Source: an uncultured Methanomassiliicoccus sp.
GTDB lineage: Archaea > Thermoplasmatota > Thermoplasmata > Methanomassiliicoccales > Methanomassiliicoccaceae
Assembly (NCBI GenBank): GCA_944319735.1
Contig: CALUEU010000002.1
Coordinates: 124,001 to 188,000, forward strand
Length of the DNA: 64,000 nt
Direction: 5' to 3'
Under the pieces are notes generated by a model. The model worked only from the letters and a program-made list of their open reading frames with translations. It searched no databases and had not been told where the DNA came from. Positions 21,482-32,852 of the stretch are shown here, one piece after another; within the stretch, counting starts at the first letter, position 1; each line of letters opens with the position of its first letter. The position numbers and the translations under genes were made by a program.

Positions 21482-22039
21482 ACTGGTTGATACTTTCTAT
21501 AGATATTTGTAGTTTTTCAGAAAATGAATATTTCTGCTTATGATCTGTCAGGGCATCATGAATGTAATAAAAAGCCTGAGAACGTTTCTTATTGTGTCGA
21601 TAAGCAGGCATTTCTGAAGTAGTGGAAATATTGCAAGAGAAACTTTAAAAGTAGTTTGCATGGTGACGTTTTGAAAAATGGGCTTTGTTTTTTAGTCTGA
21701 AAATCACAGTTTCTAAGAAATCAGTAATAATGTAAATCATGAAATATGACTTATATAGAACGTGTCTGATCGACCTAAAGAACAGGAATCCTAATATAGA
21801 AACAATTTTGACTTCTGTATAAAACATGTCATGTAGAATACTTAATTCAATGAGTTTTGTAAATGAGTTAGAAACAGACTAGGAAAGACCTACTCAATAA
21901 CTGAATCTTTAATGAGTGAAGAATTTACAAAAGAAGTTGTTTGTGTGAGATGCTGATTAGTGAATCATTAAGATACTTCAGATTATGAGAAATGACTCAA
22001 ATGCAAAATACTAAATCATTATATTGTGATCTAGAAATA
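21482..22039. other. Intergenic region upstream of the membrane-protein island
   Basis: About 560 bp of AT-rich sequence separating aIF5B from the first family-A gene. It holds only short ORFs without ribosome sites. I see no clear repeat, RNA or gene remnant in it. The aIF5B promoter must lie at its left end. Confidence 0.5.
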
Positions 22040-22405
22040 ATGTCTTTTGAATCCAATCTTCCATCATTTGAGTGTTCACTTGCAATAAAGCAAAGAAATA
22101 TTGCATTTGCATTATTTGGGATAATAACTGTAGTCGCCATTATATGTGCATCATATCTGGAAGTTAATTATGAGATGACATTCGAAATGTGGATGATAGC
22201 GATAATTGGATTGTTGTCTGGCATTGTTACAGCAATTTTTGTAATGATAAATGCATATAAGATTGAAAAAGCATTTAGATTCTCTAAAGATGGTGGTGAA
22301 TTTAAGTTAATATATGAGAATGGAAGAGCATATGGAAACGGTCTGCTTGTTATGTCATTGATAATTGTGTTTACTGTGACATTTTATTATTTTCCAGTAT
22401 CTTGA
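22040..22405 (+). CDS. Family A small three-helix membrane protein (A1)
   Basis: Not recognised outside this window. From ATG 22040 (121 aa) it aligns from the first residue with the paralogue at 24416: SFESNLPSFECSLAIKQRNI against GRFDSNLPQFKYPLATKQRN. Hydrophobic segments lie at about 20-42, 50-70 and 99-118. The family signature is a polar Y-L-E-V-x-Y-E after helix 1 and NAYKIEKA after helix 2. An in-frame ATG at 21992 is less likely because the homology begins at 22040. It is followed by the decayed ATPase copy on the other strand, the same order as A2 with the intact ATPase. Confidence 0.7.
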   Translation: MSFESNLPSFECSLAIKQRNIAFALFGIITVVAIICASYLEVNYEMTFEMWMIAIIGLLSGIVTAIFVMINAYKIEKAFRFSKDGGEFKLIYENGRAYGNGLLVMSLIIVFTVTFYYFPVS

Positions 22406-22430
22406 TGATGAAAAATAACAACACTTATTA

Positions 22431-22673
22431 AATTGATTCATTGAGCAACTCTTGCATGCATTGGTGAAATGTCAATACCCAACATAGCTAATTGCGTTGG
22501 AAAGCGATTTTAAAGTCTGTTCTGCACCGTACCAAAGGATGTAAAAATATTGTTTTTTGTCTTTGCATTCATTAATTAATATTGTTTTGCAACTTGGCGG
22601 TGTTACAGATGCTTCCAATTTCTGATTTAATGTGTTTTGTTTAGTTTTTTGTTCCTACTCCGTCCATGAATAT
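22431..22673 (-). pseudogene. Decayed, internally deleted copy of the AAA ATPase at 24797-26185
   Basis: Base-level similarity to the intact ATPase is clear. AGCTAATTGCRTTRGAAAGCGATT, the TTGTCTTTGCA segment and TTTTGTTTAGTTTTTT recur in the same order and spacing. The piece next to A1 (AAATTGATTCATTGAGCA) instead matches the gene's 3' end near 24908, so about 1 kb has been lost between residues of roughly 75 and 415. Several stops and frameshifts interrupt it, and the start codon position has changed from CAT to TAT on the plus strand. The upstream operator is kept. Confidence 0.8.
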
Positions 22674-22709
22674 GTTTGCCTTCGGCTTAGTGTGTATAGT
22701 TTGATATAT

Positions 22710-22728
22710 TACGATATACTATATCATA
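22710..22728. promoter_or_regulatory. Operator palindrome, decayed ATPase copy
   Basis: TACGATATACTATATCATA differs at one base from the perfect 19-bp palindrome before the intact ATPase. Similarity to that promoter continues to about 22760 (a shared CACATAAT). Confidence 0.65.
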
Positions 22729-22882
22729 ATTCAGCATTTATGCTGTATTTTTAAGTCACATAATTAATTAAATCATAGACAATTTAAGAATTAAATATTA
22801 ATAAACTGGAGTTAAATGTCCCATGTTTGATTAAAGTTTCAAGTGAGCCATGGATGGAGTAGGTCGGATCGGAGTTGAAAGG

Positions 22883-23491
22883 ATGAATGATAACACAAAA
22901 GACTGTATTATAATACTGCTGGCAGTGATTGTCGGTACAAGTGTAGCAGTTTTTGATTATTTAGACATTTATCAGTTTGCCACAATTGTATATCTGCTAA
23001 TCATTTCAATTGGTTGGGCTGCTCTATTGCATGTAGTTCTCTTCTGGATAATTATGTTGCCATACAAAAAGCCAAAAATAAATTACAGAGTTAAAATAAC
23101 AGATGCTGCTAATGTTTCAATATCATGTTCTAAATATGAATTTGGAAAATCAATTCATGTGGATATTGATGAGGATATTAAAATTGAGATGTACAAAGGA
23201 CAATTGATTACAGTAAAGGTTCCTTATGGTGAAAGATCATTTTCTGTTTATCAACACTCAAATATGAAAACATACAAAAAGATCTGCATAAAAAATGATA
23301 CTAAGCTGCATGTCTGGTCTGAAACTTCTACAGATAAAACTCCGTTTCATATAGGGATTTCCAATGGTGACGATAGCTGTTATGATGAGTTAGCAAGAAA
23401 TACATACATATCATCGATAAGGATTATTTCATTAGTGGTGCTGATCTATCTGGTAATTACTGTGGGAGGCTTTATCACAATGCTGTCATGA
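22883..23491 (+). CDS. Family B membrane protein with a soluble beta-rich domain (B1)
   Basis: Not recognised. The protein is 202 aa from ATG 22883, chosen because GGAG lies 8 nt upstream; a frame from 22850 is also open. Two N-terminal helices (about 8-55) are followed by a roughly 110-aa polar domain rich in alternating beta pattern (ITDAANVSISCSKYEF, IKIEMYKGQLITVKV, KLHVWSE) and a C-terminal helix. The paralogue at 29895 shares the order LTDG, IECSEFY, ATLFRGSKITLNL and RLYVWIE. The middle domain resembles PEGA-like beta sandwiches only in general pattern. Confidence 0.7.
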   Translation: MNDNTKDCIIILLAVIVGTSVAVFDYLDIYQFATIVYLLIISIGWAALLHVVLFWIIMLPYKKPKINYRVKITDAANVSISCSKYEFGKSIHVDIDEDIKIEMYKGQLITVKVPYGERSFSVYQHSNMKTYKKICIKNDTKLHVWSETSTDKTPFHIGISNGDDSCYDELARNTYISSIRIISLVVLIYLVITVGGFITMLS

Positions 23492-23519
23492 ATGAAGTTA
23501 TCACGCATCGGATAATCAT

Positions 23520-24224
23520 TCAATTTTTCAACCATTGTAAATATCGCCTATTTTTAACTCCAACATATGCGAGTATGGGACCACCTCCAATCATTGTAAG
23601 TGCTGCCCCAAATGCTGGTGGAGTATTATATAGAACAATTCCCAAATAGAATATCAATAAACCTAATGGAATTGCAAATGTTCCTGCTATGATGCTGCAA
23701 TTGGCTTTCAACATAGTCATGTTCCCATACATCTCAGAGACATGTGAAAACATAACGAATAAACGAAACCCATGCTCGATTCCTTCAGTAATAGACTGTT
23801 TGGGTGCATAACCAAGATTTTTTGCATAATCCATCTGGGTTTGTTTATCAACTGTTTCATTGATGAGAATAGCCGCTGCGTTATCCGCATTATAATTATA
23901 GTCTGAAATCATTGTATTTCTAAAGTTGTTGATTTGATCAGATAGGGATTCCATATCAAACTTTTTTGCATATGGCATAGGAATATCAATGACCAATATT
24001 GATTCTTTAACCAAAGAAGGATTAGAATCGCAGAACTGCACGAATTGTTTATTGATTGAATTCAATGGATGTTGATATACCAACACTATCTGATCGTAAT
24101 TTTCAAGATTTTTGTTATTGTGGATTTTAATAAAATCATAAAGCATACCTGAAGTTTGTTTAGATATCAGAGCTATTGAGTGTGTTTCTAAAGGGCGGTT
24201 TGAGTATAATATTAAAGTCTTCAT
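23520..24224 (-). CDS. Flavodoxin-like protein with C-terminal membrane helices
   Basis: The 234-aa protein begins like a flavodoxin-fold domain (KTLILYSNRPLETHSIALI, then YDQIVLVYQHPLNS), but the family is not certain. The last third has two hydrophobic helices (about 175-200 and 203-222) and ends in a basic tail. AGGAG lies slightly far upstream of the ATG. It is convergent with B1 (28 nt) and divergent from A2. Its place inside the A/B/C island, on the opposite strand, suggests it belongs to the same accessory unit. The function is unknown. Confidence 0.65.
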   Translation of the reverse strand: MKTLILYSNRPLETHSIALISKQTSGMLYDFIKIHNNKNLENYDQIVLVYQHPLNSINKQFVQFCDSNPSLVKESILVIDIPMPYAKKFDMESLSDQINNFRNTMISDYNYNADNAAAILINETVDKQTQMDYAKNLGYAPKQSITEGIEHGFRLFVMFSHVSEMYGNMTMLKANCSIIAGTFAIPLGLLIFYLGIVLYNTPPAFGAALTMIGGGPILAYVGVKNRRYLQWLKN

Positions 24225-24415
24225 CCATTCTCATTCTCCTTTAAAATTTTTTAAATATTAATATTAGTATGTCTACAATAGAGTCCGTTGGACTGCAAAT
24301 ATTGTAAACGGTTACAACAATCAGAAAAATATACAAATTTCACACATAACTTCAGAATGGAAGTGGGAGATGCAGATATTCAACCAAATACTGGCAAATA
24401 AGCGTTGGTGTTAAT

Positions 24416-24784
24416 ATGGGCAGATTTGATTCCAATCTTCCACAATTCAAGTATCCATTAGCAACAAAGCAAAGAAACATTGCATTTACGTTATATGGTA
24501 TAATAGCCGTAGTCACCATTGTATGTGCAGTATACCTAGAAGTTATGTATGAAAAGACTTTCGAATTGTGGATGGTAACGATAGCTGGATGGCTATCTGG
24601 CATTGTGACCGGAACGATTGTAGGTATAAATGCATATGATATCGAAAAAGCACTTGATGATAATAAATCTGAATCTGAGACTATGAAGATATGTAAGAAA
24701 GGAAAAGTATATGGAATTGGTTTACTCGCGCTATCATTAGTTATTGTGCTTACAATGACGTATTATTATCTTCCAATATCATGA
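24416..24784 (+). CDS. Family A small three-helix membrane protein (A2)
   Basis: The best preserved family member, 122 aa. Helices are at about 20-42 (IAFTLYGIIAVVTIVCAVYL), 50-70 and 99-119. The polar signatures are PLATKQRNI before helix 1, YLEVMYEKTFELW between helices 1 and 2, and NAYDIEKAL after helix 2. GGTG precedes the ATG by a few bases. It is convergent with the AAA ATPase, 12 nt apart, and the same A-ATPase arrangement is found at 22040-22673. No signal peptide or catalytic motif is visible. Confidence 0.75.
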   Translation: MGRFDSNLPQFKYPLATKQRNIAFTLYGIIAVVTIVCAVYLEVMYEKTFELWMVTIAGWLSGIVTGTIVGINAYDIEKALDDNKSESETMKICKKGKVYGIGLLALSLVIVLTMTYYYLPIS

Positions 24785-24796
24785 TGATTAAAGTGA

Positions 24797-26185
24797 TTAT
24801 TTTAAGTATAGATCACTGAGAGTTATTAGTCTCACGTCAGACTGGTGATGTTTCTTTAGAGATGAAGTAAAGCCAGATTTTGAGAATAGATAATAGTAAT
24901 ATCTATCAAATCGATTCATCACTTGAGCATACTCCTGCATTAGCCTCAGTTCATCTTCGCCGATTAGCTTATTGCAGTATTTGCAGGAACCTATTACTCC
25001 TTCCTGCTTATCGATTGAAGCGGCTACAATATCTATCTGCACCTGTTTTTTTGTTTTGGAGTCTGCTCCCCACCATTGTCCTATTTCCCCTATGATGAAT
25101 GGAAGATTCTCATCATGGAACAGCATGAAGTCTTTACACATCTTTTCAAAGACTAAACCCATATAATCAGAAAGCCTGCTTTCTATTGATGTTTTATAAG
25201 CCTGCCCGATTCTACCTGACAAGATTGCAGCCATATTGTTTGGAATAAATGTGTACCAGAAACGGAAGAAAAAGTCTTCAATCAGATATATGGGACGCTT
25301 ACTGTTCGAGTCAGTCACAGGAGTTTCTTTTTTCAAAATACCGAGTGATATTAAATTTGTAATGTATTTAGAACATAATCCGGTTTCTAGTCCCACTGTC
25401 GAAGATATTTCAGACAGCTTTGTTTTTCCAGATGCTATGGCAGTGATTATTGCATTGTATGTGGCAGGTTCCCTGAGCTCTTGTTTCAGAAGATTTGACG
25501 GTTCCTCAAAAAGCATAGCATTCTTGTCAAATATGCAGTCCAGTAAATTTTCTTTCACATTCTTCTCAGGCGAGAACTGCTCGAGGTACATGGGTATACC
25601 ACCGGTAATGCCATACATTATCGCTTTGTCTTCATATGAGTACTTGGGAAACCATTTCCCAGTGTCAAAGTAATCAAACGGCAGAATTTTGAATTGAGCT
25701 GTGCGACGACCATAAAGAGGACTTTGATACCCAAGTACCTGATTTTCCATGAAACTCATTGAAGAACCGCAGAGGATAAGAAACAGCTTTGTATTTTTGA
25801 ACTGATGATCGAGATAGTTCTGAAGGAGAGAAGAAATGCTAATCTCTGCCTGAGCTAAATATGGGAATTCATCAATCACAAAGATCAGGCGGTCTGAAGA
25901 TGCCATTTCTCTGATTTTATCAAAAGCATCAGAGAAACTTTTGTATATGGCATTGGATGAAATGCCGGCATCAGCGTAGCTAATTGCATTAGAAAGCGAT
26001 TCTAAATTCTGTTCTGCACTGCTCTCCAAGGATGCGAAGAATATTGTTTTCTTGTCTTTGCAGAACTCATTAATCAGTGTTGTTTTTCCAACTCGGCGGC
26101 GACCATAGATTACTGCTACTTCCAGCTTGCTGCTTTGATACATTTTGTTTAGTTTTTTCAGTTCCTGCTCTCTACCTATGAACAT
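24797..26185 (-). CDS. AAA ATPase with C-terminal DUF234 (archaeal ATPase_2 family)
   Basis: The 462-aa protein has Walker A GRRRVGKTTL (residues 28-37), Walker B LIFVIDEFPYL, a sensor region LILCGSSMSFM, a winged-helix part (about 245-290, KLSEISSTVGLETG) and a C-terminal DUF234 domain, which has a PD-(D/E)XK-like fold in this family. These ATPases are abundant in archaea and of unknown function, possibly mobile or defence-related. GAGG is placed before the ATG, and a perfect palindrome sits in the promoter, so self-repression through its own wHTH is plausible. A decayed copy lies 2 kb away. Confidence 0.85.
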   Translation of the reverse strand: MFIGREQELKKLNKMYQSSKLEVAVIYGRRRVGKTTLINEFCKDKKTIFFASLESSAEQNLESLSNAISYADAGISSNAIYKSFSDAFDKIREMASSDRLIFVIDEFPYLAQAEISISSLLQNYLDHQFKNTKLFLILCGSSMSFMENQVLGYQSPLYGRRTAQFKILPFDYFDTGKWFPKYSYEDKAIMYGITGGIPMYLEQFSPEKNVKENLLDCIFDKNAMLFEEPSNLLKQELREPATYNAIITAIASGKTKLSEISSTVGLETGLCSKYITNLISLGILKKETPVTDSNSKRPIYLIEDFFFRFWYTFIPNNMAAILSGRIGQAYKTSIESRLSDYMGLVFEKMCKDFMLFHDENLPFIIGEIGQWWGADSKTKKQVQIDIVAASIDKQEGVIGSCKYCNKLIGEDELRLMQEYAQVMNRFDRYYYYLFSKSGFTSSLKKHHQSDVRLITLSDLYLK

Positions 26186-26207
26186 ATTTGTCCTCAGTTT
26201 AGTATAT

Positions 26208-26226
26208 TACGATATACTATATCGTA
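26208..26226. promoter_or_regulatory. Perfect 19-bp palindrome in the ATPase promoter
   Basis: TACGATATA-C-TATATCGTA is a perfect inverted repeat 22 nt before the ATG of the ATPase, overlapping the likely TATA element. One base differs in the copy at 22710-22728. It is probably the binding site of a dimeric repressor, possibly the ATPase itself. The remaining 26227-26504 sequence shows no gene. Confidence 0.65.
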
Positions 26227-26504
26227 GTTTAGTATTTATGACTATGTTCTAATTCACATAATAGATTAGTATGGCGATTGTCAAATAGTAAAAACTAACA
26301 GATATACTAATATAAAGTTGCAACAATCTAATTTATGAAATTTACAGCATCAAACAATCTTATGTTGTACAGGAGGTAGGAGAGTAATAAACAAAAATTA
26401 AAAAATTTGACATTCTTGAGAATGTCCAGTAAAATTAGATGAGCATTGAAAGATGATCCGGAATTATGAGGTCGCCACTTTTCTGAAAACGAGGAGGGCT
26501 TAAC

Positions 26505-26891
26505 ATGCAAAAAAGCATAAAATCAATGATTATGCCAGAACCAGTGTTTCCACGAGGAAACATTCCCTTAGCAAATAAGCAAATGAGCTATGGCGAAAAA
26601 ATACTAATTATATTTTTTTCTGTTATTTGCATAGGAGTAATATACCTCATAATAGTAGAAGAGAAAGATATAGAAGGAACTATCTTTGGCATAATTTCAA
26701 CTATTGTATTGGTAGTTATTGGTTTGACTTGGGGATTAACCGCTGTCAAAATAGAAAAGATCTCAGAATCAAAGAGAGAAGCTGAAGCTGAACATTTTTA
26801 CTATAAAGCAAGAATGTACGGAGCAATTACTACTACATTAGGCATGCTAATGATTGTAGGATTATTTCTTTCATTAGTAGGGATCGTTTAA
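26505..26891 (+). CDS. Family A small membrane protein (A3)
   Basis: A diverged member of 128 aa with a strong Shine-Dalgarno (GAGGAGG). The entry IPLANKQMSYGEK corresponds to PLATKQRN of A2. The helices at about 30-50, 59-80 and 103-125 and the TAVKIEKISESK segment correspond to NAYDIEKAL. A family C gene follows 160 nt downstream on the same strand, giving an A-C pair. The function is unknown. Confidence 0.7.
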   Translation: MQKSIKSMIMPEPVFPRGNIPLANKQMSYGEKILIIFFSVICIGVIYLIIVEEKDIEGTIFGIISTIVLVVIGLTWGLTAVKIEKISESKREAEAEHFYYKARMYGAITTTLGMLMIVGLFLSLVGIV

Positions 26892-27053
26892 AAAAGGACC
26901 TGATGGCATCCATAAGGCTTAAATACAGTTAAAATTACAGAAAAAGTTGCCAACGCTACAAGAGGCATGTATGGCCTAGCAGTACGAACTGTTAAAGGGT
27001 CATTTGCACATGGATTCGGGTGATGGTCATTTAATATTTATAATGTGATATAT

Positions 27054-27761
27054 ATGAATAAAGATACGGCTAAAGCGTGCACTGTAGCGGGGATAATGCT
27101 AATCGTCTTACTATCGCTAGCGATTCCATATGTAAATGGTGTATATGTTATAATATTAATTTCAAATATTATCTGTTTTGCAATACCATTTATAGTCATA
27201 GGAATAGCTGGGTTGTATGAAAATAAAGATAATAAAAACAACGAAAAACACGTAAAGGAACGTGCTGCGGCAACTATGTTTTCAGTAATACCAGGTCTTG
27301 GTCATGTATACTTGAAACGATATGTAAAAGGTATTTTTTATATGGTTTTATTTCTAATATTTGTAGCAATATTTACAATAGGAATTATTTTGTATTCAGA
27401 CGATTACTATTATGAATATACCAATGCCGCAACAGTATCTTACACATATGGATTGATCATGGCATTTTTTATCTGGATATGGTCATACATAGATATTGCT
27501 AGCATCTGCAATGATAATGCCTTGCCTTATATAGAAGAAAGTTTAGAAATAAGATGCAAAAGAACAGATTTAGCCACATCCATCTTATTTATGATTACAT
27601 CAGTATTGTTGATTGCTGCTTCTGTGATTATGATGAATTTTGATGTTACAATTAGTAATTTACTCAACATTATTGTGATAGTGTTATCAATAATACTATT
27701 GATTCCCATATCCTATAAATATCTGAAAGATGCTAAATTAAAAAATGATCTCATGAAATGA
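27054..27761 (+). CDS. Family C multi-helix membrane protein with PGLGH motif (C1)
   Basis: The 235-aa protein starts at ATG 27054, chosen because all three family C proteins then begin M-x-(K/R)-(D/T)-x-AK. Two helices (about 8-28 and 33-55), a charged stretch (ENKDNKNNEKHVKERAA), then VIPGLGHVYLKRYVKGI leading into further helices. The G-L-G-H-x-Y-x-x-x-x-x-K-G-I pattern resembles the P-G-x-G-x-x-Y-x-G turn of TM2-type proteins. The later WIWSYIDIASICND is shared by the family. It pairs with A3. The function is unknown. Confidence 0.7.
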   Translation: MNKDTAKACTVAGIMLIVLLSLAIPYVNGVYVIILISNIICFAIPFIVIGIAGLYENKDNKNNEKHVKERAAATMFSVIPGLGHVYLKRYVKGIFYMVLFLIFVAIFTIGIILYSDDYYYEYTNAATVSYTYGLIMAFFIWIWSYIDIASICNDNALPYIEESLEIRCKRTDLATSILFMITSVLLIAASVIMMNFDVTISNLLNIIVIVLSIILLIPISYKYLKDAKLKNDLMK

Positions 27762-27847
27762 CAAATATTTGATATAATTAACTACTAGTTTCTGGTTGGA
27801 CCTGCACAGAATGGACATTATACAAACAACAGGGCCCTTCAGATTCT

Positions 27848-28190
27848 ATGCTTCCACAATTCAAATACCCACTAACGACAAAGCAAAGAAATATCGGGGT
27901 TGCATTGATTGCAGCAATAGGCACAATCACTGTTGTATGTGTAGCATATCTGGAAGTTATGTATGAGATGACGCTCGAATTGTATATCACCACAATAATT
28001 AGTGGGCTATGCAGCATTGTAACAGGAATTATCGTACTGATGAATGCATATGATATCGAAAAAGCACTTGATAACAATAAATCTGAATTTGAGACCATAG
28101 CAACATATAGAAAGGAAGAATATGTGGAAATGGCCTATTTGCGTTATCATTGATATTATAATTACAGTGGCACACTACATCTTCCACTGA
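27848..28190 (+). pseudogene. Frameshifted family A member (A4)
   Basis: Residues 1-80 match A2 closely (LPQFKYPLTTKQRNI, YLEVMYEMTLELY, NAYDIEKALDNNKSE). Helix 3 survives only across two frame changes: C-G-N-G-L-F-A-L-S-L in one frame and I-I-T-V-A-H-Y in another, against YGIGLLALSLVIVLTMTYYY of A2. The shift near 28120 truncates the ORF at 101 aa (stop 28153). No Shine-Dalgarno is seen, and coding similarity extends upstream of the ATG (G-P-S-D-S). Probably a recent pseudogene. Confidence 0.65.
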
Positions 28191-28256
28191 ACTAAATTAG
28201 ATGATAGAGAAAAGTCTTCAAGAAATATGTTTGATTAATAAGAGGTACATTAATAC

Positions 28257-28927
28257 ATGTCCAGAACTACAGCAAAACTATACTTATATTTTGGATTGAT
28301 ATTCTCCATCATCTGTGCAATATCTATCGTATTTTTTCATAAAGAATATTCAGTAATTGTACCTGTAGTTTTTCTAATCTGCGTCTCAATGCCGTTAACA
28401 TTTGCTGGATATTTTGGGATGAAAAAAGACGGTTGTGATGAGGAGACAAAAAAGAAAGAGACGCTGCTATGATTTTATCATTTATACCTGGACTAGGCCA
28501 TAAATATATGGACGAGTCCAAAAAAGGTATCCCACATTTTATATTATTTATACTATCAATAATTCTAATGGTATTATTTGCAATGATGGTTATTGGCATA
28601 ATAGAAAAAACACCAGAAGAAGCATCTGTCTACCTCCTTTATGGATTGATATTGTTATTATTCGCATGGATGTGGTCTGCAATAGATGTAAATGACTTAT
28701 GCAATAAATCTGATTTACCGTATGAGAATGGATTTTTTGAGATGAAGTTAAGTAATTCTAACATTGGAATGTTAGTCACATCCATTGTGTTTTACATTAT
28801 TGGATTAATAACCTCATTATTTATGTTAAGTGAAGGATGGATTGGCATTGAAGTCTTTTCAATAGTAGTTGTTGTATCCATGTTAGCTCCATTGTATTCA
28901 ATTTATAGATATATCATAAAAAAATAG
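28257..28927 (+). CDS. Family C membrane protein split at an A-AAA-AAG slippery site (C2)
   Basis: Frame 1 (28257-28472, 71 aa) matches the N-terminus of C1 and C3. The rest of the protein is in the -1 frame and ends in TAG-TGA at 28925-28930. The join is at A AAA AAG, 28448-28454, in the phase required for a -1 shift. After slippage the protein reads KKERDAAMILSFIPGLGHKY, matching KEKEREAAMALSLLPGLGHKY of C3. The full product is about 223 aa, against 227-235 for its paralogues. The alternatives are a one-base deletion in the A run, or reinitiation at the ATG (28469) that overlaps the frame-1 stop as ATGA. GAGG precedes the first ATG. Confidence 0.65.
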
Positions 28928-29010
28928 TGATTTCCAATAAAACTGTGACGTCATCTCAAAAGTTATAAAATTTACAAACACCCTATAGAAAATGTGTGGA
29001 GGAATGCAAT

Positions 29011-29352
29011 ATGTTAAATGACGGGATTCTAACAGATCCTTATGCAATAAAAACAAAGCATTTGTATGATTTTGCTTTGTGGGTAGTAGGCATTTCTGCT
29101 GCAATAATTTGTGTAATTTTAATGTATTGTGAAAGAGGCGATATAGGCATAATAGTATTTTTCATAATGGTGGTGCTTGCACTAATTATCGGCGCAGTTG
29201 GAATAAAAAAAGCATTGAAGATGCAGTATAAAGCAGAGGAGATTTCTAAACCGGTTCTTAGTGAAAAAAGTAAGAAAAGGAATAAATTCCTTTACGGGTT
29301 AGTATTGATTTACATAGTAACTCTGATATGTATGGCGGTATACATGTTGTAA
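29011..29352 (+). CDS. Family A small membrane protein (A5)
   Basis: 113 aa from ATG 29011, with GGAGG 8 nt upstream; an in-frame GTG at 28996 lies within that site. It has the three-helix plan (about 21-40, 47-65 and 92-112), DPYAIKTKHLYDF before helix 1 and GIKKALKMQYKAEEI after helix 2, so it is the most diverged family A copy. It lies 84 nt after C2 and 137 nt before A6. The function is unknown. Confidence 0.65.
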   Translation: MLNDGILTDPYAIKTKHLYDFALWVVGISAAIICVILMYCERGDIGIIVFFIMVVLALIIGAVGIKKALKMQYKAEEISKPVLSEKSKKRNKFLYGLVLIYIVTLICMAVYML

Positions 29353-29488
29353 TATAATGATATAAATCTTATTTTAAAATAAGTGTATGTGAACATTCAA
29401 TGAGAGTGTAAGTTATATTAATTGTGTAAATTTTTATATGGGCATGTCTGATTGTGTTAGATGTTGAAAAAGAAGTAGTGAGGAAGCT

Positions 29489-29842
29489 ATGATAGATATT
29501 CCAGGCTATACTGAATATGACAATTTGGTGGCAAAAAAACAAGGATTTTTTTCATTTTGCATCATGACTGTCATATTTGTAACACTCATCTGTTGCATTA
29601 TCTATCTTGCAGTAGTTAAAGAAAAAGAATTGGAATTGTATCTTGTAGGGATAATCGCATTGATTTGCATGATCATTACAGGATATGTTAGTTTATCTAA
29701 TGCAAGTAAGATACAAAAATTATCTGAGGCTGGTAAAAATTCTAATGAATTGATACATGTTGAGCGTGAAAGTCGCAGAAATGGATATATTATGACCATA
29801 ATATCGATTGTGATTGTATTAACAATCACATACACAATATAA
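29489..29842 (+). CDS. Family A small membrane protein (A6)
   Basis: 117 aa with GAGG before the ATG. It aligns with A2 throughout: DNLVAKKQGFFSF for PLATKQRNIAF, IYLAVVKEKELELYLVGI for VYLEVMYEKTFELWMVTI, and LSNASKIQKLSEAG for GINAYDIEKALDDN. Helix 3 is at about 96-115. It is followed after 52 nt by B2 on the same strand, the same A-then-B order as A1 and B1. Confidence 0.7.
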   Translation: MIDIPGYTEYDNLVAKKQGFFSFCIMTVIFVTLICCIIYLAVVKEKELELYLVGIIALICMIITGYVSLSNASKIQKLSEAGKNSNELIHVERESRRNGYIMTIISIVIVLTITYTI

Positions 29843-29894
29843 TTAAGTGTAACAATCTATCAATATCACTTTTTTCTTTTAGGGATGAGCTGTC

Positions 29895-30494
29895 TTGATT
29901 TCAGATCTAGATAAAATATGGATCAAACTTACCATTCCGATAACTGTTATTGTAGCAGTATCATATCTAGTGTACGATGAAGAAGGAATGCTTATTGCAG
30001 CTGCTGTGCTTTTATCAATATTTGTTGGCATCTCAGCATATTTCTTAGTTGAAACATTTATCCCACCAAGAAAGGCTATCATAAAATTGACTGATGGAAA
30101 CTGTAAAGTTCATATTGAGTGTTCAGAATTTTATATAAATCGTAAACCCCTATTGGTAACTATTAATGAAAAAGAGATTATTGCTACGTTATTTAGGGGA
30201 TCAAAAATAACATTAAATCTATCACACAATGACAGAGTATGTTTTCTATACAATAACAATGTGAGATCATCATCCTATGATGTGGAAAATGACATGAGAT
30301 TGTATGTTTGGATAGAGCCATTGGCTACAGTTCAAATACAAGTTGAAAAATTTTATACCACCCCATCAAAAAACTCAGCATACAATATTTACAAAAAAAC
30401 AAATCAGTTTGTTAGAAAAATCACAATTCCAATAATAATTTTTGGAATAGTAGCAATTACTATGATGTTATGGCATGCAAATATATTCCAGTAG
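29895..30494 (+). CDS. Family B membrane protein with a soluble beta-rich domain (B2)
   Basis: A 199-aa paralogue of B1 with the same plan: two N-terminal helices (about 10-27 and 34-54), a polar domain of about 110 aa, and a C-terminal helix (about 172-195). The start is TTG; AGGGATGAG lies 8-14 nt upstream. It ends in TAG, and reading through would add about 18 residues before a TAA. A long hairpin follows directly. The function is unknown. Confidence 0.65.
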   Translation: MISDLDKIWIKLTIPITVIVAVSYLVYDEEGMLIAAAVLLSIFVGISAYFLVETFIPPRKAIIKLTDGNCKVHIECSEFYINRKPLLVTINEKEIIATLFRGSKITLNLSHNDRVCFLYNNNVRSSSYDVENDMRLYVWIEPLATVQIQVEKFYTTPSKNSAYNIYKKTNQFVRKITIPIIIFGIVAITMMLWHANIFQ

Positions 30495-30547
30495 TTTGAA
30501 ATGAGAATAAGTTACACTTTACATGTGATAAAAATCTCATGTTTCAA
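30492..30547 (+). terminator. Long hairpin after B2
   Basis: GTTTGAAATGAGA (30492-30504) pairs with TCTCATGTTTCAAAC (30533-30547) with a two-base bulge. It begins at the stop codon of B2 and may be a terminator or an mRNA-end stabiliser. No strong T run follows. From 30548 to 31032, nearly 500 bp, I see only AT-rich sequence without a gene. Confidence 0.45.
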
Positions 30548-31032
30548 ACCTCATTTTTAAGATAACGAATCCAAAAAAAGTTAGAATAAAGCACATATGT
30601 GGCATTCTACCCATATAAATGAAAGAATCAATCGATTGAAATCTGTTTGATGATATTGAGCCTTATTTTTTTACAATCTTGTCATCGCTTACAACAATAG
30701 TGTGCAAAGTTAGATCGATGTAAATTTTTAAAGAATTTTATTGGTAAAAAATAGCAGAAAAAATATATGTTAAGGATCCCATATAAGAGCAGATACTAAG
30801 CATGAAGAGTTGACGAGTACAGAAATGGTAAACAATTGCGTTTGGTAGACATCTTCTGTTGCTCTTAGTTATTCGTTGATGTTGCATCTAACAAATAGTT
30901 AAAACTGCACAAGAGTCACTAAAACATGGCTGTAGATGTGTAGTAGCATCCAAGGGGCCATAAGATTAGTAATAAAATAAGATCGTCCAAGCGATGTGAT
31001 CAAAAAAAGGATTAGAAGCATTTGTGATGGAT

Positions 31033-31716
31033 ATGGGCAAAGATTCGGCCAAATCATATGCAGTAATTGGGGCAATAATGCTCACATTATGTTGTATTGC
31101 TTTAATTTTCTTTAGTGAGTTACCAGGAGTTAAATTATCCGTAGGAAGCTTCGCTTTTGCCTCACTTGTAATATGTGGTGTAGGAATATACAATCTTAAA
31201 AACATAAACATCTATGAAGATGAAGAGAAGAATAAAGAAAAAGAACGTGAAGCCGCTATGGCTTTATCTCTATTACCTGGATTAGGTCACAAATATCTTA
31301 CTGGGAAACTTAAGATAATTCATACTATCGTGTTTACTATCAGCCTTATACTTATAATAGCTGGAATACTAATAATATCTGAGATCATAAATATTGAAGA
31401 GGGTGTGGGATGGATTTTACTTGTATATGGACTAGTTATTTTCTTTTTTTCATGGTCATGGTCTGCACTAGAAGTAAATGACATATGTAATAATATGAAT
31501 CTCCAAAACATTAATGGAATATTCTCAATGAGCTGGAATAAAACGGAATCGGGCTTAAGTATTTTATTCATTGTAACATTTATAATACTTGCAGGAATGT
31601 CAATCGCATGGGGTTATTTCTACCCACAATATTTCTATGCAGCGGCGATTGCGACACTAGCATCAGCTCTACTTCTAGTATGGTTAATTATCAATAAAAT
31701 AAGAAAAAATAAATAG
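31033..31716 (+). CDS. Family C multi-helix membrane protein with PGLGH motif (C3)
   Basis: 227 aa from ATG 31033, the position matching C1 (MGKDSAKSYAVIG). Layout: two helices, a charged linker EDEEKNKEKEREAAMA, then LLPGLGHKYLTGKLKII, further helices with WSWSALEVNDICNNMN, and a basic tail (KIRKNK). It ends in TAG. It is intact, and it is the best reference for the frame of C2. It is the last gene of the island before the convergent urease cluster. Confidence 0.7.
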   Translation: MGKDSAKSYAVIGAIMLTLCCIALIFFSELPGVKLSVGSFAFASLVICGVGIYNLKNINIYEDEEKNKEKEREAAMALSLLPGLGHKYLTGKLKIIHTIVFTISLILIIAGILIISEIINIEEGVGWILLVYGLVIFFFSWSWSALEVNDICNNMNLQNINGIFSMSWNKTESGLSILFIVTFIILAGMSIAWGYFYPQYFYAAAIATLASALLLVWLIINKIRKNK

Positions 31717-31961
31717 CATTGTGTTAAACTTTGATGAAATATACTGTATGGAAATGAGCCTAATTTTTAAAAAATTAAACTTTCATCCTACTTTTTAATG
31801 ACGATGTGCCGACCATGCATCATCTTACCTACCTACACGTAGTAAGTGTATCTTTTTTGCACGTAACAAAAGATCAACATGAGTGTTCACTCTTGCGCCT
31901 CTTCCACTGCTACTAATCTTGAATCATTGATATTAGAAAAATGTCTAAAAAGTTTACAGCA

Positions 31962-32852
31962 TCAGAATCTAAACCGACCATACTGCATTCTTAAGTTCGG
32001 AGTTTCCTGGCCAGTTTCAGCTTTTCTGAATGCATTCCACAAACTCAGCTGGAAATCTTTCAGATCATCGATGTCATCAGAAAGAGCCTTAGCAATCAGT
32101 CCACACCCATAAGGAAGTTCACTGATGCCTCCATGTACGCAGCAGAAATCCAGATTGTCTTTAGAGTCCAGTATTGATGTTGAAATAATATATGCAGTAA
32201 GATAGTAATTCATGCTACCGAATAAAGTTTCAGAACGTTCTTTATCTTCAGATGTCCACAGCAGATTGTCAATGGCTACAGTTTTTCCATCCTGTATGAT
32301 CTTTGTACGGGAAGAGTATGCATCAAAATCCCATGATTCTCCTCTGGCGATCCTTCCGGGACAGAATATTTCAGAATAAAACAACGCTGCATCGCCTTCC
32401 AGATTAAATGTCACATCCTGATGCCATCTTGACCTGGCAAACGCAATATTCTCTTTAGGAATGTATTCTAAACGGCTTCCACTGCCTAAAGAGATATTTG
32501 TTATCCTGCTGCCATAGTTGCTGTCCATCCTGTAAATTTTAGTTGCCGCGTTGTCTGTAATGAAAGCTTCAGCACCCTCATCCAGCCTGATATCATATGT
32601 GTATCTGTCTCCTTCAATTATACCGGCTGTAGGATTAACAAATATCACGTAAGGCATGCCGGGGCGCAGTTCATCGTAGTATAACGCATGAAGTACCTTT
32701 GCAGGAGTGACGTTGTAGTTTCTAGACAGATATGTCTTTTCACCGCTTTTTGTAAAACAGAGATCTGCTACGGCATTTTTGCCGGCAGATCCTACTGGAA
32801 GTACGCATTCTTCAAGAGCATATGAATCAAAGCATTGCGGAAGATCGTTCAA
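31962..32852 (-). CDS. ureD: Urease accessory protein UreD
   Basis: UreD (UreH) binds apo-urease and, with UreF and UreG, forms the activation complex that delivers nickel. The 296-aa protein has the family pattern: PYVIFVNPTAGIIEGDRYTYDI, ATKIYRMD, EYIPKENIAFARSRWHQ and EIFCPGRIARGE (short parts of each suffice). The start is TTG, overlapping the ureG stop as TTGA, with AAGGGG shortly upstream. It is the last gene of the operon, so the order is ureA-B-C-E-F-G-D. Confidence 0.9.
   Translation of the reverse strand: MNDLPQCFDSYALEECVLPVGSAGKNAVADLCFTKSGEKTYLSRNYNVTPAKVLHALYYDELRPGMPYVIFVNPTAGIIEGDRYTYDIRLDEGAEAFITDNAATKIYRMDSNYGSRITNISLGSGSRLEYIPKENIAFARSRWHQDVTFNLEGDAALFYSEIFCPGRIARGESWDFDAYSSRTKIIQDGKTVAIDNLLWTSEDKERSETLFGSMNYYLTAYIISTSILDSKDNLDFCCVHGGISELPYGCGLIAKALSDDIDDLKDFQLSLWNAFRKAETGQETPNLRMQYGRFRF

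Follow-up and report, generated by a model that had tools for sequence, protein, structure and literature searches.

A membrane-protein gene broken by one base at an A_AAA_AAG heptamer in a tandem family of an uncultured Methanomassiliicoccus sp.

The window, a stretch of 64,000 nucleotides from an uncultured Methanomassiliicoccus sp. (assembly GCA_944319735.1, contig CALUEU010000002.1), belongs to a 1.77-Mb genome that is rated 99.55% complete and encodes methyl-coenzyme M reductase and pyrrolysyl-tRNA synthetase, a pair of genes suggestive of Methanomassiliicoccales. Between about 22 and 32 kb (22000-32000), the GC content is 31-36%, versus mostly 40-49% elsewhere, and this low-GC stretch carries four tandem families of small membrane proteins, A, B, C, and D. 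Judged by their sequences, its flanks read as an aIF5B-like gene on one side and urease-like genes on the other, and the stretch looks like a variable island. Family C comprises three neighboring copies, with no more genome-wide at the threshold used. One of them, C2, is broken in two by a one-base frame break inside an A run (Table 1).

Table 1. Features of the C2 locus and its paralogs (window positions)
Feature	Position	Strand	Remarks
B1	21992-22405		Family B copy, reference for B3
B2	24416-24784		Family B copy, reference for B3
C1, intact paralog	27045..27761	+	Start probably ATG 27054; DUF6677 above cut-off
B3, decayed paralog of B1/B2	27833..28190	+	Ends about 70 nt before C2
C2 N-terminal half	28257..28472	+	0 frame, 71 aa, stop TGA 28470-28472
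GAGGAG, SD-like	28440..28445	+	2 nt before heptamer
C2 C-terminal half	28442..28927	+	-1 frame, open window, PGLGHKY motif
A_AAA_AAG heptamer	28448..28454	+	0-frame phase; presumed indel site; A run 28448-28453
ATGA, C-half start over N-half stop	28469..28472	+	Possible reinitiation, weak SD
Predicted hairpin	28484..28530	+	Begins 29 nt after heptamer
C3, intact paralog	31024..31716	+	Start probably ATG 31033

On re-reading of the sequence, the coordinates of C2, its division between the 0 and -1 frames, and the ATGA overlap were all as the original prediction had described them. The open -1 frame starts at 28442, a limit set by TGA codons at 28436 and 28439, and overlaps the 0 frame over 31 nt (28442-28472). 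Within this overlap, A_AAA_AAG (codon context ACA AAA AAG AAA) is the only in-phase X_XXY_YYZ heptamer. It had been proposed as the sole place where the halves can join; it is indeed the only canonical slip site, but a shift is possible anywhere in the 31 nt. The N-terminal half, preceded by the SD-like motif AGAGGT, is hydrophobic and, to judge from C3, has about two membrane helices, and the C-terminal half, read from its ATG, is an ORF of 152 aa (28469-28927). At ∼31% GC, a frame would be very unlikely to stay open for ∼160 codons had it not been coding until recently, which puts the split beyond chance. The C-terminal half ends in AAA AAA TAG TGA (28915-28930), and in this genome, with its pyrrolysyl-tRNA synthetase, translation might pass the TAG and end at the following stop.

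As predicted, the alignment of the joined C2 product with C1 and C3 continues over the junction, spanning the block KERxAAM..PGLGHKY. Both halves are supported by tblastn, with E values against the two paralogs of 3e-28 and 4e-22 for the C-terminal half and of about 2e-5 and 6e-5 for the N-terminal half. C1 and C3 are both unsplit, and their junctions contain neither a slip site nor a long A tract. The PGLGHxY motif is held in common with DUF6677/TM2-like small membrane proteins: C1 scores 29.6 bits against Pfam DUF6677 (cut-off, 24.3), the C-terminal half of C2 reaches 15.6 bits, below the cut-off, and no match was reported for C3. The predicted structure of C3 has a mean pLDDT of 56 and is thus too poor for a fold search.

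A profile built from the three family C copies was run against 147 genomes of the order and matched in 33. Among the relatives' ORFs examined, 19, from other genera, cross the junction in one frame. Neither the split nor the frameshift site is conserved, C1, C3, and these 19 relatives all being unsplit. The junction linker is Lys-rich in several relatives, and four unsplit ones (L076, L077, L086, and L095) have in-phase A-rich heptamers at the junction; L077 carries A_AAA_AAG itself (CAA AAA AAG in QKKSRPDAM). Genomes of the same family gave only short matches in the PGLGH region, to distinct proteins, and no family C relative was found in the genome contig collection searched. Viral contigs yielded one weak local match (L009) and none to the DNA of the C2 site. 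From relatives in other genera, we infer that the ancestral C2 was one uninterrupted frame.

Genome statistics were obtained from a 464-kb sample (the window plus L010 to L029), about 85% of which is covered by long ORFs. When one-base deletions were placed in its ORFs by simulation, an in-phase A_AAA_AAG appeared in the overlap in about 1% of trials with random deletions and in 52% of trials with deletions in an A7G run. Thus, one indel at such a run accounts for the heptamer and the frame break together, and the heptamer is weaker evidence than the split itself. The motif is cited as markedly underrepresented and highly shift-prone in E. coli (PMC4066793). Here, it is found in phase in 45 of 409 ORFs and is not avoided, with 40 occurrences against 39.3 expected from synonymous-codon shuffles of ORFs of at least 150 aa. 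A7 is depleted in all three coding frames of the sample (z, -6 to -9), as would be the case were such runs hazardous. In-phase U_UUU_UUC is depleted in the sample too (1 seen versus 13.2 expected; z, -3.9), whereas its other frames show no depletion. C2 is the only candidate in the 464 kb that combines the heptamer with two halves recognizable as one gene; the other heptamer/overlap candidates were judged by eye to be spurious ORFs or neighboring distinct genes. On the minus strand of L022, at about 4327, a carbohydrate-kinase-like ORF runs into the next one, which lies in the -1 frame, and the shared segment contains A_AAA_AAC; by eye, the pair reads as two genes.

Programmed or usefully tolerated -1 frameshifting at A_AAA_AAG would produce the 71-aa protein and a fusion of ∼223 aa that matches the paralogs. 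We consider it unlikely, even though the heptamer is canonical, in phase, and alone in the overlap: the family conserves neither split nor site, and ordinary genes here tolerate the motif. The usual spacing of a stimulatory structure is 5-9 nt downstream of the heptamer, and pseudoknot-free folding gave no stem there; the 46 nt that directly follow the heptamer have a folding energy of only -2.4 kcal/mol (z, +1.4). A search for downstream structure, suggested by the original prediction, placed the first stable stem 29 nt past the heptamer, too distant for a usual stimulator. This hairpin, whose region has a z-score of -3.0 in one folding window, was rejected as a stimulator since it starts too far downstream and such scores are not rare here (-2.5 or lower in 8 of 162 folding windows of the stretch). 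Nor is there an upstream SD, an optional feature, at a stimulating distance: GAGGAG is badly spaced, just 2 nt before the heptamer, whereas PMC4066793 searched 6-17 nt upstream for stimulatory SDs.

The tRNA complement also argues against such frameshifting. ARAGORN finds tRNA-Lys(CUU), and a tRNA-Lys(UUU)-like gene was read by eye at 246.6 kb of the contig labeled C2 (L072, 1400-1530, minus strand). The D and T regions of the latter appear to be interrupted by insertions, possibly noncanonical tRNA introns, and it was called neither by ARAGORN nor by the tRNA searches. E. coli dnaX has the same heptamer in the same phase as C2, accompanied by a properly spaced upstream SD and a stem-loop close by, and E. 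coli has only one tRNA-Lys, which reads both AAA and AAG. The arrangement is opposite to that of C2: in dnaX, the full-length protein is read in the 0 frame, and shifting yields the truncated one. The early emphasis on a dnaX-like signal is therefore not supported here, where tRNA-Lys(CUU) is joined, apparently, by tRNA-Lys(UUU); a review links the tendency of A_AAA_AAG to shift in E. coli to the sole tRNA-Lys of that species (PMC5009743).

There are archaeal precedents. Purifying selection acts on A_AAA_AAR in magnesium chelatase genes, among them the genes of Methanocaldococcus and Methanococcus (PMC5009743), and the split alpha-L-fucosidase gene fucA1 of Saccharolobus solfataricus shows about 10% -1 slippage in vitro at A_AAA_AAT (PMC8211752); a 2021 review counts a single reported archaeal case of cellular -1 frameshifting (PMC8211752). 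Like C2, fucA1 is an archaeal gene split between the 0 and -1 frames at an A-run heptamer with a short overlap (40 nt in fucA1), and most of its close relatives are full length. For fucA1, tandem rare codons and experimental evidence of -1 frameshifting are on record, along with a putative stem-loop (PMC8211752), whereas no suitably placed stem was found for C2. That C2 functions by -1 frameshifting without a nearby stimulator, in a methanogen with two tRNA-Lys species, and so yields two forms of a membrane protein, one short and one long, is doubtful and a little less probable than frameshifting in the broader sense. If true, it would be one of the rare archaeal examples in a cellular gene.

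A sequencing or assembly error at the homopolymer, with the actual gene intact, is improbable. A runs are classic error sites, but that of C2 has only six A's, the genome is nearly complete, long ORFs span most of the sample, and no other recognizable gene there is split at this heptamer. Moreover, B3 carries three one-base deletions relative to B1 and B2, in its last third and outside long A runs. Real decay thus seems to exist nearby, and small-deletion decay is probably under way beside C2. Six A's are likewise short for phase variation in A-run length or transcriptional slippage, by which the frame would be restored in part of the population. The depletion of A7 in coding sequence is consistent with hazardous runs, and family C encodes membrane proteins, but the C1 and C3 junctions lack a long A tract, and we regard such restoration as very improbable.

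The two halves could instead be made as separate proteins by termination-reinitiation at the ATGA, the products of a fissioned gene that may associate in the membrane. Archaea have been shown to reinitiate at such stop-start overlaps (PMC6728339), and the ATG of the overlap is the conserved Met of the paralog block. However, only a weak SD precedes 28469, no relative is fissioned in this manner, and the frameshift 15 nt upstream appears to have created the ATGA overlap as a side effect; we give this explanation little credence.

We therefore favor, with moderate confidence, the explanation that C2 is a recently frameshifted copy in a redundant, tandemly duplicated membrane-protein family. The A run of its Lys-rich linker would have lost one base, and the same loss would have broken the frame and left A_AAA_AAG. 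A single indel at a mutable A run suffices, and the homologs are intact through the break. Slippage, one-base deletion, and reinitiation had been put forward as competitors; deletion is now preferred because the heptamer follows from mutation, relatives are unsplit, B3 has decayed, the usual stimulators are absent, and ordinary genes of this genome do not avoid the motif; the other two keep lower confidence. We infer the direction and recency of the indel and the loss of C2 function. Unlike in B3, no further disabling changes were seen in either half of C2, which would also fit continued use and counts against the favored reading, as does the precedent of fucA1, expressed by -1 slippage although its relatives are full length.

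As a recently frameshifted copy, C2 is probably a young pseudogene or yields mainly the 71-aa N-terminal fragment. Traces of the full-length protein by slippage, or of the C-terminal half by reinitiation at the ATGA, may still be made and need not be selected; the parallel with fucA1 and archaeal stop-start reinitiation make low-level expression of the fusion or of the C-terminal half possible. C2 resembles the singleton frameshifted genes, or hypothetical pseudogenes, of GeneTack (PMC3711429) in its single occurrence, homology support, and unconserved site; there is no clear difference, C2 belonging to a lineage-specific multicopy family. The loss of one base in an A run can by itself yield a textbook slippery heptamer, and since the heptamer can arise automatically, its presence at a frame break is not in itself evidence of programming where genomes are rich in A. 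Slippage at C2, were it demonstrated, would extend the record beyond the one archaeal case of cellular -1 frameshifting counted by the 2021 review (PMC8211752).
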